Below are positions 4,647-8,840 of a DNA stretch of 34,546 nucleotides, in pieces. The position numbers and the translations under genes were made by a program. The notes below the pieces were generated by a model that saw only the letters and a program-made list of their open reading frames with translations, had not been told where the DNA came from and searched no databases. This DNA is from a virus, in the IMG/VR virus record IMGVR_UViG_3300032288_003360, positions 1 to 34,546 of that record; one strand, written 5' to 3'. Position 1 is the first letter of the stretch. Each line of letters opens with the position of its first letter.

Positions 4647-4671
4647 AACCCCGCCTAGTGCGGGGTTTTTT
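4647..4671 (+). terminator. Rho-independent terminator after gp32
   Basis: AACCCCGC (4647-4654), a 5-nt loop and GCGGGGTT (4660-4667) form an 8-bp GC-rich stem leading into a T run that ends at 4671. The T run reaches the stop codon (4670-4672) of the convergent 810-aa gene on the other strand. On the minus strand no T tract follows the hairpin, so it should mainly stop rightward transcription. Confidence 0.92.
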
Positions 4672-7102
4672 ACGTCACCCGTTGGAATAGATTTAAAAAC
4701 ATATCGTCATATACAGAAGGTAGATTACCTTGTGATTGTTGGCCACCACCAGATGATGCTTGTGTACTGTTGTTAGTTATATTGGTTACATTATTAACCA
4801 AACCTTCAATCATTCTCATAGTGTCTGAAAAGTCTGCTGTTGCTCCCATCAACATTTCTCCAAAGTTTGGCATCGTTGGCATTAAACTTGGTACTAATGG
4901 CAAAGATGGTTTTGATGCTGATGCTAAAGTAGTATCGCTTTTATTTTTAGCTAACATTGTACCACTGCCATGACCCATTGGACCACCACCTTTTAACGCA
5001 GCTATAGTTGTATCAACATTTGTATTTAATTGTGGATTAGTTTTTGCAGCCGCACCTTTAAGTCCCAAAACATCTAAAGAATTTGCATCACCCATGCCAG
5101 CATTTTGTGCATCAATTAATTGTTTAGTACCTTTTGCACCAACAGCGTGAGCCATAGATAGATATTCTTCGGTATCTGGTAGTCCGTAAGCTCTCAACTG
5201 TTTAGCATTTGATTCTGTATATGCTGTCATCATCTTTTCTTGATTCTGACCATTGAACAAATCATTTGGTCCAAGACCTGCTAATTTAGCAGCTGCAATA
5301 ACATCCATAAACTGATATTTTCCAGCAGCTTGTTTATTTGATTTCTTTTCTCTCTCGCCTGCTTGCCAAGCAGCAACTTCACCTATCGTATTTTCTGTAA
5401 CTAATTTTCCATTTATTGTAGCACCGCCTGCTTTGCCAAATATAGTATCATAGTTTCCTCCAGATTCTCTACCACCAATTCTAGAAGCGTAATCGCCAGA
5501 AGGTGCTGCGGTTGGTTTTGTGGAAGGTGCTGTTGGTGCTGAAGTTGGAACAGCTGGGGTTGGTTTACCAGCAGCTGCAAGTCTTGCCGCTTCAGCAGAA
5601 CTCTCATTTGGCGCAGATGGTAATGCTTGTACTTTAGCAGTTTCAAGTTGTTGCGGTACAACACCCAATCGTTTTAATTTTTCTTCGTAAAATACGGCTC
5701 TTTGTTTTAATATCTTTTCATTACCACCTTGATTAATATCATCCTGTATTGAAGCAAGTGCAGCAACACCATCAATAACTTGTTGTTGGCTATCTGGCGC
5801 TAAAGCATCTATTACTTGATATGCAGTTAAAGCTGTTAACCAAGCAGCGCCAATTGGACCACCAATAAGTGCAGCTGCTTCACCAGCAAAGAATTTTTTC
5901 AGTATTTCACCAGCGCCTTTTTTAGCAACATTTTTAGCACCTTGTTCTGCAGCCATTCTTGCTGCTCGTTCTCTAATTTTATCTTCTGCTGTCTTGTTGA
6001 AACCTGCTGGTACTTTTTCTCCAATAGTTCCAGGTTTTATTACTGGACCTTTACTAGGAGTTCCTGGTGCTCCAGGTGTTGGTGCTCCAGGTGCTCCAGG
6101 TGCTGGTGCTCCGGTAGTTGGCATTGGCAATCCCAATTTCGAAGCACCCCATGCAATTGCAGCTGCGCCGGCCGCAGTTGCTAAACCTGCAAGAGCACCA
6201 CCTAGAGCTGTAATTGCTAAGTATAAAGCGCCACCCGCAGCTAAAACTGTAAGAAGGCCACCAGGAATTTGTAATTCTTTTTGCAAGTAATCATCTAAAG
6301 CTGAAACCGCTTTGATAATTAATTGTCCAATAGATTTAAAAATCTCAACTATTCCACCAATAATTTTTGGGTCACTAACTATGTCACTTGTCAGGTCAAT
6401 TAATTTTTTTATTCCTTTTAACACATAATCAAATGCATCAACAGCAAATTCTTTAACTTTAGCATAAATTTCTGGGTTATCTAATAATTTTCCAATACCT
6501 GCCATTAAAACACCAATTATCCCACCTTTAATTAAAAGAGATGCTATTGATGATAATATGTCAAATATGCTTTTTTCTTCCTTAGGTTTAGCACCCACTT
6601 GTGTTGGAGTTTTAGTTGCTATTCCGCCTGCTTTACTAAATTTAGATTCATAAGCAGTCTCTCTATCACCAGCTCTTTTAAAGAACATGTCTGCATTTTT
6701 TGTTGCAGTACCACCTTGCAATTTGACCAGTTTCATAATGTTCAATTTGGTCAAATTCATGTCCATTGCCATTGCAGGCAAGACAGAGGAGTTTTTTGCG
6801 GCTAACTTTGAATGTATCTTTAGTTCTCTGGTCTCACCAGTAAGAATGTCCATCTTTGTTTCTAATGCGCCACTAGAGAATGAACCACCTAAACTGGCAA
6901 TTTTTCCACCAGATTTAGCAGGTGTTGCACTATACGATTTAAACATTGATGGTAAAGCAGTTGCGAGAAATCCTTTTTGATTAAAGAATTGTCTTGGATC
7001 CACTTTCTCAAGAGCTCGTTTACCTAAAGTTGATGCTATTCCACCACCTTTAGATTTTTCAGCCTTGTAAATTTCTGCTAATCTGGACTTGTTTTCTGCC
7101 AT
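4670..7102 (-). CDS. Large hub/tape-measure-like tail protein with lysozyme-like domain
   Basis: 810 aa, last gene of the leftward operon. The N-terminal 170 residues are basic and Gly-rich. Two long hydrophobic stretches follow (about 181-206 and 282-318), as in tape-measure proteins. Next is a collagen-like Gly-Pro-Ala segment (331-352), then a helical region and a Pro/Ala/Thr linker (512-535). Residues 537-670 look like a lysozyme/lytic transglycosylase domain: RIGGRESGGNYDTIFGKA with candidate catalytic Glu546, and AAGKYQFM (592-599). The C-terminus is low-complexity Asn/Gly/Gln-rich and ends FLNLFQRVT. Position directly after a frameshifting chaperone-like pair supports a tape measure or gp29-like hub component that carries the murein-digesting activity T4 places in gp5. 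The exact T4 equivalent is uncertain. Confidence 0.75.
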   Translation of the reverse strand: MAENKSRLAEIYKAEKSKGGGIASTLGKRALEKVDPRQFFNQKGFLATALPSMFKSYSATPAKSGGKIASLGGSFSSGALETKMDILTGETRELKIHSKLAAKNSSVLPAMAMDMNLTKLNIMKLVKLQGGTATKNADMFFKRAGDRETAYESKFSKAGGIATKTPTQVGAKPKEEKSIFDILSSIASLLIKGGIIGVLMAGIGKLLDNPEIYAKVKEFAVDAFDYVLKGIKKLIDLTSDIVSDPKIIGGIVEIFKSIGQLIIKAVSALDDYLQKELQIPGGLLTVLAAGGALYLAITALGGALAGLATAAGAAAIAWGASKLGLPMPTTGAPAPGAPGAPTPGAPGTPSKGPVIKPGTIGEKVPAGFNKTAEDKIRERAARMAAEQGAKNVAKKGAGEILKKFFAGEAAALIGGPIGAAWLTALTAYQVIDALAPDSQQQVIDGVAALASIQDDINQGGNEKILKQRAVFYEEKLKRLGVVPQQLETAKVQALPSAPNESSAEAARLAAAGKPTPAVPTSAPTAPSTKPTAAPSGDYASRIGGRESGGNYDTIFGKAGGATINGKLVTENTIGEVAAWQAGEREKKSNKQAAGKYQFMDVIAAAKLAGLGPNDLFNGQNQEKMMTAYTESNAKQLRAYGLPDTEEYLSMAHAVGAKGTKQLIDAQNAGMGDANSLDVLGLKGAAAKTNPQLNTNVDTTIAALKGGGPMGHGSGTMLAKNKSDTTLASASKPSLPLVPSLMPTMPNFGEMLMGATADFSDTMRMIEGLVNNVTNITNNSTQASSGGGQQSQGNLPSVYDDMFLNLFQRVT

Positions 7103-7345
7103 TTATTTTCTCGCTTGCTGTTGAGCTTTTAATCGTTCTTTTTCTTCTTCTAAAAATTTCACCAACATATCAATGTAAACTTGTCTTTCCCAAGGTAACA
7201 TGTTATCCAATTCCGTCAAACTATACTTGTGGTGTTGCATTAAAGCAAAGTTAGTTTGAAAGTAATTACCTAAGGTATCATAACCAAATATTATACGAAA
7301 AAATTTTGAATGCCTTCCACGACAATCTTTTCTTCGTAACCACAC
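7103..7345 (-). CDS. -1 frame extension of gp26 (tail assembly chaperone-like); probably not a stand-alone gene
   Basis: This frame overlaps the 3' end of gp26 and has no credible start of its own. The GTG at 7345 lies inside gp26 without a ribosome site, and the first ATG (7240) is preceded by no Shine-Dalgarno. Protein-like sequence begins exactly at the slippery site (FFRIIFGYDTLGNYFQ) and runs through ALMQHHKYSLTELDNMLPWE to a charged helical tail rich in Glu, Lys, Arg and Gln. The simplest reading is a -1 frameshift within gp26 yielding a fusion (7103-8031, about 308 aa), like lambda G/GT or P2 E/E'. Both sit immediately upstream of a tape-measure gene, as here. If translated from ATG 7240 it would be a 45-aa protein. 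Confidence 0.7.
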   Translation of the reverse strand: MWLRRKDCRGRHSKFFRIIFGYDTLGNYFQTNFALMQHHKYSLTELDNMLPWERQVYIDMLVKFLEEEKERLKAQQQARK

Positions 7346-8031
7346 TTACCACATTTAAAATCCAAAGGTTTAGAAATCTTTGGCATTGTAGTAAAAAACT
7401 TTTGAATCTTTTCAAGGTCATCTTGTTGTAGGTTGTCTACAAACTCCATCAATTCTTCTTTTGTAGAATCTTTGGCATAATACATTTGTTCATCATCATA
7501 AATGAAATCAATACAATTGACAATAACATCCATAATGGTATCGATAGATTCACTCTGCAAATTATCAAAGTTCTTTACCATTCCCAAAGTTGGATACTTC
7601 ATTACAATACCCAACTTGTCAGTAATTTCAATCTTATTGTTGTGGTCTTTATCAATAGTCGGTTTGATATCTAAGATATTCAAATCAAACTTAACCAGAC
7701 CACCACAAGGTTTGTCTTCACCCTTGTCATCCTTAACGATGTTGTTACAGTTGTATTTTAAATTAACAACCTCACCAACAGACCTAGCACGAAGCTGCAT
7801 GAATAAATGTTCAAGGTCAAATGTTGGCAAATCATCAACATCAATATCTGATATAATACAATTATTCAATACTTGTTTGACCACATTGATTGTTTCTTTT
7901 TCATCATTTGACTGTGAAGCCATCAGAAACAATTTTTGCTCTTTTACAAGAAACGGTCTATATTTTACTTTCTTACCTGATGAAATTAAAGTAGTTTCAT
8001 AGGTCGGCACATCAATTTTTGGTAAAGCCAT
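7291..8031 (-). CDS. 26: gp26-like baseplate hub assembly protein (T4_baseplate family)
   Basis: 246 aa (T4 gp26 is 208 aa). The N-terminus MALPKIDVPTYETTLISSGK and the KYRPFLVKEQKLFLMA block are characteristic of the gp26/T4_baseplate family. In T4, gp26 helps assemble the central hub. Four cysteines (95, 109, 227, 230, the last two as KCGKCG) could form a zinc-ribbon-like site. The frame ends at TAA 7291-7293, immediately after the slippery heptamer, so the protein is probably made in a short and a frameshifted long form. A GAGG Shine-Dalgarno lies before the ATG (minus strand, about 8039-8042). Confidence 0.85.
   Translation of the reverse strand: MALPKIDVPTYETTLISSGKKVKYRPFLVKEQKLFLMASQSNDEKETINVVKQVLNNCIISDIDVDDLPTFDLEHLFMQLRARSVGEVVNLKYNCNNIVKDDKGEDKPCGGLVKFDLNILDIKPTIDKDHNNKIEITDKLGIVMKYPTLGMVKNFDNLQSESIDTIMDVIVNCIDFIYDDEQMYYAKDSTKEELMEFVDNLQQDDLEKIQKFFTTMPKISKPLDFKCGKCGYEEKIVVEGIQNFFV
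7297..7303 (-). promoter_or_regulatory. Candidate -1 ribosomal frameshift heptamer T TTT TTC
   Basis: On the minus strand the gp26 frame reads CAA AAT TTT TTC GTA TAA. T TTT TTC fits the X XXY YYZ rule in the correct phase, two codons before the gp26 stop. It is overlapped by a second fitting heptamer, A AAT TTT (7300-7306). Slipping back one base joins gp26 to the downstream frame as Asn-Phe-Phe-Arg-Ile-Ile-Phe-Gly. I did not identify a downstream stimulatory structure. Confidence 0.7.
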
Positions 8032-8048
8032 TTTATATCCTCATTAAA

Positions 8049-8840
8049 TTATATTAGTACTCTTGCGAGTGGGTTCACGAATGTATTGCTAACAGATTGA
8101 CCTAGTTTATCAAAAAATGGCGCAGCCTTCGCACCAAACAATGCAGCTGCGGCTGCAGCAAGGTCATAACTACCAGCATAAACAACACGGTACTTTTGAT
8201 ATGTGAATTGTACCGAAACACGGTGAAAACTTTCTTCTGACCATGAAAGTGGCTGAGAAGAAATTCCAAGTGGAAATGCATCCATTAATTCAACAACAAA
8301 TATCTTTTTAATAAACTCATCATACTGAATGATTTGAATATTTGTCATGTATCTGGTTTCATCATCTTTAGCATAACGCAAGTTGTTTGTGTCAGTAGGC
8401 ATAATTGCTTCTAACCAACGGTCAAATAACTTACGTTCATAGAATTCGTTAGTACACAAAAACGTCAATGTAGTTTCTTGGTACTGTGTTTGATATGGCA
8501 CTTTAAAAGATGGGCCATAGATTTTAACATCTTGTGTTAATAGTGATTTGCCTGGTAACTCAGCACTCTCGCATTGAAGTGCCAAATATCGAGAAATAGA
8601 TGGGTTGGAAGTTTTAGATTGTTCACTACTAGTTCCTCCTCCACCAATAATACTGTTAATATCTTGTGTAATATCTGCAATGATGGCATTTGGAAAGTTA
8701 AGTAGTTTTTCCAAAACAGATGATTCAATAAAATTATTGATGTATGGTGGAATAGGCAATATAACTTCATATCGGCTAGGTTTTGCTAGACCATCTTTAG
8801 CCTTAACATTAGAAAGAAATAATTGTGGTGAGAATGACAT
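8049..8840 (-). CDS. Tail-tube-fold protein, candidate gp54-like tube initiator
   Basis: 263 aa. A tail-tube core is apparent: SRYEVILPIPPYI, RYLALQCESAELPGKSL, YGPSFKVPYQTQYQETTLTF, KLFDRWLEAIM and the late strands VELMDAFPLGISSQPLSW and VSVQFTYQKYRVV. This pattern is shared by gp19-type tube proteins and by the tube cap and initiator gp48 and gp54. It is longer than gp19 homologs (about 160-200 aa) and has an extra Ser/Gly loop (IIGGGGTSSEQ) plus a hydrophobic Ala-rich tail. gp48 is encoded separately nearby and major tube genes usually lie by the sheath gene, so gp54 is the best guess. It overlaps the neighbouring stop codon by 1 nt. Confidence 0.7.
   Translation of the reverse strand: MSFSPQLFLSNVKAKDGLAKPSRYEVILPIPPYINNFIESSVLEKLLNFPNAIIADITQDINSIIGGGGTSSEQSKTSNPSISRYLALQCESAELPGKSLLTQDVKIYGPSFKVPYQTQYQETTLTFLCTNEFYERKLFDRWLEAIMPTDTNNLRYAKDDETRYMTNIQIIQYDEFIKKIFVVELMDAFPLGISSQPLSWSEESFHRVSVQFTYQKYRVVYAGSYDLAAAAAALFGAKAAPFFDKLGQSVSNTFVNPLARVLI

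Follow-up and report, generated by a model that had tools for sequence, protein, structure and literature searches.

Among the closest described systems to the locus studied here are the G/GT pair of lambda and the E/E' pair of P2, in which a −1 slip close to the 3' end of a gene located between those of the tail tube and the tape measure leads to a short and a long product. In T4-like phages, the tail assembly chaperones (TACs) were reportedly identified by Vladimirov, Gautam and Davidson in 2022, work that is said to connect gp26 and gp51 with chaperones. The original prediction, which was made from the DNA letters only, had proposed a link between the T4 hub assembly factors and the general tail chaperone system; this link is not new, as it was reportedly published in the 2022 work. 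The G-T frameshift has been described as conserved in long-tailed phages except T4 (2016 review, PMC5009743). According to PMC10885494, a short gene together with a long fusion gene is found in some T4-like phages, and poly-T −1 signals in TAC-N genes of T4-like phages are given as known in PMC12846349. Since T4-like TACs and poly-T signals had been reported earlier, the system of the window is of an already known type. The present analysis adds the scale of its conservation, a selection boundary, evidence from start codons, the T4 group as a control and a finding on the annotation of gp51.

The window, that is, the whole stretch of 34,546 nucleotides that was analyzed, corresponds to a viral record of 34.5 kb that is probably a fragment. 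Its source is a lake-type relative of T4 in which a single gene would give a helper protein for tail building in two sizes. The genes concerned lie on the minus strand in the order tail tube, gp26, extension and long ORF, the first encoding a tail tube or gp54-like protein (8049..8840; phrog_45, E 5e-33). The 0-frame product of gp26 (TAC-N, 246 aa; 7291..8031) matched phrog_150 (E 6e-73) and, at residues 9-245, PF12322 (T4_baseplate; E 2e-65, 220.9 bits vs. a gathering score of 24.5). The 3' end of this frame reads CAA AAT TTT TTC GTA TAA and contains the slippery heptamer T TTT TTC (7297..7303). The X XXY YYZ phase was as predicted, but the distance of two codons to the end of the frame had to be corrected, as one sense codon (GTA) separates heptamer and stop. 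The overlapping A AAT TTT also proposed is present in the window but is not conserved, some relatives reading AAAGTTTTTTC. In-phase runs of six T (T6) were found 5 times in the 10,618 codons of the window genes and, within the last 12 codons, only in gp26. The −1 frame from C7297 encodes an extension of 64 aa (RIIFGYD...QARK; 7103..7297), whose stop (7105..7103) is placed directly before the ATG (7102) of an 810-aa ORF. This extension (TAC-C, corresponding to the C-terminal domain of T4 gp51) matched phrog_634 (T4 gp51 'baseplate hub assembly catalyst'; E 2e-28), the homology starting at residue 14 of the ORF as listed, which coincides with the slip site. It also matched the last part of the phrog_150 profile (positions 229-278).

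We have high confidence that gp26 is the short chaperone TAC-N and that a minority −1 slip at T TTT TTC gives a gp26-gp51 fusion acting as TAC-NC. A minority of the ribosomes would slip back one base at the heptamer, the two tRNA-Phe placed on TTT and TTC re-pairing on TTT and TTT, and the slipped ribosomes would translate 64 more codons, giving a fusion with the junction N-F-F-R-I-I. With respect to lambda G/GT and P2 E/E', the differences are the heptamer, T TTT TTC in the window, and the larger size of gp26, which has a second domain with a CxxC motif.

The conservation of this arrangement was surveyed in phages of Kyanoviridae, pelagiphages and phages of Methylophilales, Sinorhizobium, Caulobacter, Pseudomonas, Aeromonas and Vibrio. 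In the first 80 related viral contigs (gp26 identity 60-97%), the junction was present in 78, all of which (78/78) had TTTTTTC in phase, and a recognizable −1 extension was reached in 77 of them. The complete set comprised 279 loci from related viral contigs and isolates, 2 of which run off the contig end; the distant ones were sought with single-protein queries. T6 was in phase in 255/255 testable loci outside Ackermannviridae and two vibriophages, the final base of T TTT TT(N) being C in 236, T in 18 and G in 1. All 250 complete extensions of T6 loci were open (250/250), with a length of 57-69 aa. Isolates showing the slip arrangement include Syn1, P-SSM2, P-HM1, ME01, Mosig, Melnitz-2, phiN3, phiM9, Cr30, Milchi, AsFcp_4 and ValKK3. 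The standard frameshift signature of tail chaperones is thus present at hundreds of loci in T4-like phages that do not belong to the T4 group. At the codon level, the codon 5' of the Phe-Phe pair ended in T in 220/220 unique junctions and the second Phe codon was TTC in 201 of the 220, while Phe-Phe pairs elsewhere in these gp26 genes were written TTTTTC in 27/226 only. This codon usage points to a synonymous constraint at the slip site.

The same fusion product could also come from RNA polymerase slippage on the T run, where an added base would give a mixed pool of mRNAs. The run is of six to eight T and the product would be alike; however, exactly six T closed by C were found in 236/255 loci and in the X XXY YYZ phase of ribosomal slippage, and a run of six T is short for efficient transcriptional slippage. 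We consider this origin extremely improbable. Two minor variations were seen among the relatives. In 16 loci, comprising the pelagiphage-like L217 and L083 and their relatives, the gp26 0 frame continues seven codons longer 3' of the heptamer, and in L007 seven codons of the extension (SLTELDN) have been lost in frame with respect to close relatives, leaving the frame intact.

Alignment of the gp26 homologs, the check proposed with the original prediction, bore out that the heptamer and the −1 frame are conserved and that homology and purifying selection both start from the slip site. Pooled over near relatives, the dN/dS of the −1 frame was 0.14 over extension codons 1-19 and 0.11 over codons 20-55, similar to that of gp26 itself (0.11), while upstream of the slip the −1 frame gave 2.3 and downstream of it the 0 frame gave 1.7; all these values are descriptive, as the pairs are not independent. 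A GTG at 7345 was considered as an upstream start of the −1 frame and discarded, because upstream starts were not conserved and the stretch showed no purifying selection in that frame.

These data bear on the possibility that the extension forms a small gene of its own, that annotated as gp51, with an independent start and expressed by coupling or re-initiation at the gp26 end. A short separate gp51 is annotated in many relatives, the GenBank records examined either annotating it separately or omitting it and none joining it to gp26, and an ATG overlaps the gp26 stop in ValKK3, Cr30, phiM9, K382 and phiDP10.3. However, residue conservation sets in at the slip site, ahead of any possible start in 110/216 unique loci, in which no ATG, GTG or TTG was found in the −1 frame before extension codon 15. 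The extension had been said to hold only one ATG in the window, which was wrong, as there are three (codons 20, 33 and 44); the first extension ATG was preceded by a Shine-Dalgarno-like sequence in 2/210 cases, and one locus had an extension without any ATG. In addition, selection was alike over codons 1-19 and 20-55, and a separate gene would leave the conservation of T6 without explanation. In 19 of the 216 unique loci a −1 frame stop abuts the heptamer, and consequently the frame can be entered there only at or after the heptamer. As predicted, an independent start could not account for the conserved extension in this start-codon survey. We regard a separate gene as very improbable; on these sequence grounds, the conserved part of the extension cannot be made by an independent gene, and in the window the −1 frame (7103..7297) appears to be read only as part of the gp26 fusion.

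This reading affects existing annotations. The 'gp51 baseplate hub assembly catalyst' of Kyanoviridae and the window extension are the same thing, although the former is annotated as a separate truncated gene and the latter is part of a gp26 fusion. It was remarked in 2010 (PMC3037559) that the first ~200 residues are absent from the gp51 of cyanophages and vibriophages; cyanophage gp51 would lack them because gp26 supplies them. The comparison indicates that no separate gene exists for the cyanophage 'gp51', which would imply a wide correction of annotations, most 'gp51' genes of cyanophages and related phages being wrongly annotated halves of a fusion protein.

A possible stimulator of the slip was sought at both sides of the heptamer. 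The folding of the downstream RNA was no better than that of shuffled sequences (z −0.7 and −0.3). Upstream, a Shine-Dalgarno-like GAAGG (7313..7317) is located 9 nt 5' of the heptamer, and its GG at −11/−10 was kept in 220/220 unique junctions. The Gly codon of GAAGG is also kept in T4 gp26, a gene without slip. GAAGG was not retained as a demonstrable stimulator because, although conserved, it is inseparable from this Gly codon common to T4.

The T4 group provides a natural control, with two genes in place of the slip and the heptamer absent. In T4 gp51, residues 1-201 make up a complete PF12322 domain (E 8e-55), after which comes the extension domain (phrog_634, E 8e-24), and the gp51 C-terminus aligns with the window extension from the slip site; by these matches, T4 gp51 combines a paralogue of gp26 and the extension in one reading frame. 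Both systems share the two homologous domains (PF12322 and phrog_634) and a short and a long product, but T4 has two genes that have diverged and lie on opposite strands, with no heptamer, whereas the window has one gene with a −1 slip. No in-phase heptamer was found at the 3' end of T4-type gp26 genes accompanied by a separate gp51, and the Phe-Phe pair is written TTC TTT in T4 and its near kin. In a phylogenetic tree, read as unrooted, gp26 of the T4 group formed one clade (100/98) and the gp51 N-domain another (100/100), and all 17 slip-bearing rows plus four Ackermannviridae or vibriophage rows constituted a third group (95/89). The simplest reading of these sequences is that one old duplication stands in for the slip in the T4 group. 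As a separate observation, T4 gp26 weakly matched the gp28 family phrog_1140 (E 9e-4), and gp28 may be another remote relative.

The loci without T6 were 22, of which 20 belonged to Ackermannviridae (L199-L216, L090 and L101) and two were the Vibrio phages K382 (L087) and VPALA (L089). In Ackermannviridae the gp51-like extension lies in the −1 frame after a nearly invariant junction, GAR ATT TTC ATY TAA, some members having TAATG and others no nearby start codon; a non-canonical slip or coupling is possible at this site. In K382 and VPALA the extension follows CTT TTC in the −1 frame with no canonical heptamer. T6 is therefore not universal, because the −1 extension persists without it in Ackermannviridae. 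Loss of the heptamer with the extension kept had been named beforehand as a finding against the slip; it occurs in Ackermannviridae, the two vibriophages and T4, but the slip in the window is unaffected, and these losses are lineage-specific replacements rather than evidence against it. We suggest only tentatively that the gp26 family has three exchangeable routes to a short and a long chaperone, namely the T6 slip in most lineages, duplication in the T4 group, and an undescribed non-canonical −1 signal or stop-start coupling in Ackermannviridae and the two vibriophages.

The fold of gp26 was analyzed with an AlphaFold2 model of the window protein (pLDDT 89). In VIA-align, residues 1-95 of the model resembled RBSTP2171 (3fgx; Z 7.6), HK97 gp13 (2ob9; Z 7.5) and Bacillus subtilis YqbN (3klu; Z 7.0), with rmsd 4.1-4.3 over 84-85 residues, all with Z < 8 and hence of moderate strength. 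PICI ORF19 (Z 5.1) came below, the next row having 4.6 and the remainder ≤2.5. We take RBSTP2171 and YqbN to be tail assembly chaperones; gp26 has ~150 further residues beyond these three structures. Ordinary Foldseek gave HK97 gp13 only at rank 30 (E 1.8), Pfam Phage_TAC_3 was matched weakly by 3/64 gp26 relatives (best E 0.003), and a sequence search of solved structures yielded no match. When the T4 gp51 model was used for a fold search, neither a TAC nor any clear match was returned, which is no argument against the fold. With moderate strength, the model suggests that the gp26 N-domain has the TAC fold. The chaperone role foreseen for gp26 agrees with this TAC-like N-domain and with the two-product architecture, and we conclude that gp26 and gp26-extension correspond to TAC-N and TAC-NC.

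As for the client, the 810-aa ORF (4670..7102) is presumed, from its gene order and a match to phrog_90 (endolysin; E 4e-6, residues 547-627), to be a tape-measure candidate with a muralytic-type domain. Syntenic long ORFs in several relatives weakly matched tape-measure PHROGs; the 810-aa protein itself had no match in Pfam, and in tblastn its sole match, covering 10% of its length, was in P-TIM40. On the basis of gene order and these weak matches, it is presumed to be the chaperone client. The same frameshift could also serve a T4-type hub assembly chaperone only, with a client other than the tape measure, given that gp26 and gp51 are listed as hub assembly chaperones in T4 (PMC3004832) and that the tape-measure identity of the 810-aa protein is presumed. 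However, the TAC-like fold and the two-product architecture speak against this, and the order tail tube, TAC and long ORF fits lambda-type modules; in T4, moreover, gp29, the tape measure, is also listed among the hub proteins (PMC3004832), so that hub and tape-measure roles may be one. We judge an exclusively hub-related role rather unlikely. Under the tape-measure reading, and by analogy with lambda, many short and few long copies would probably coat the tape-measure protein encoded by the next gene, and the role of the extension, as in lambda G/GT, would be to recruit the tail tube protein. Within the 810-aa ORF, residues ~547-670 form a lysozyme- or transglycosylase-like stretch (ESGGNY..AAGKYQF).
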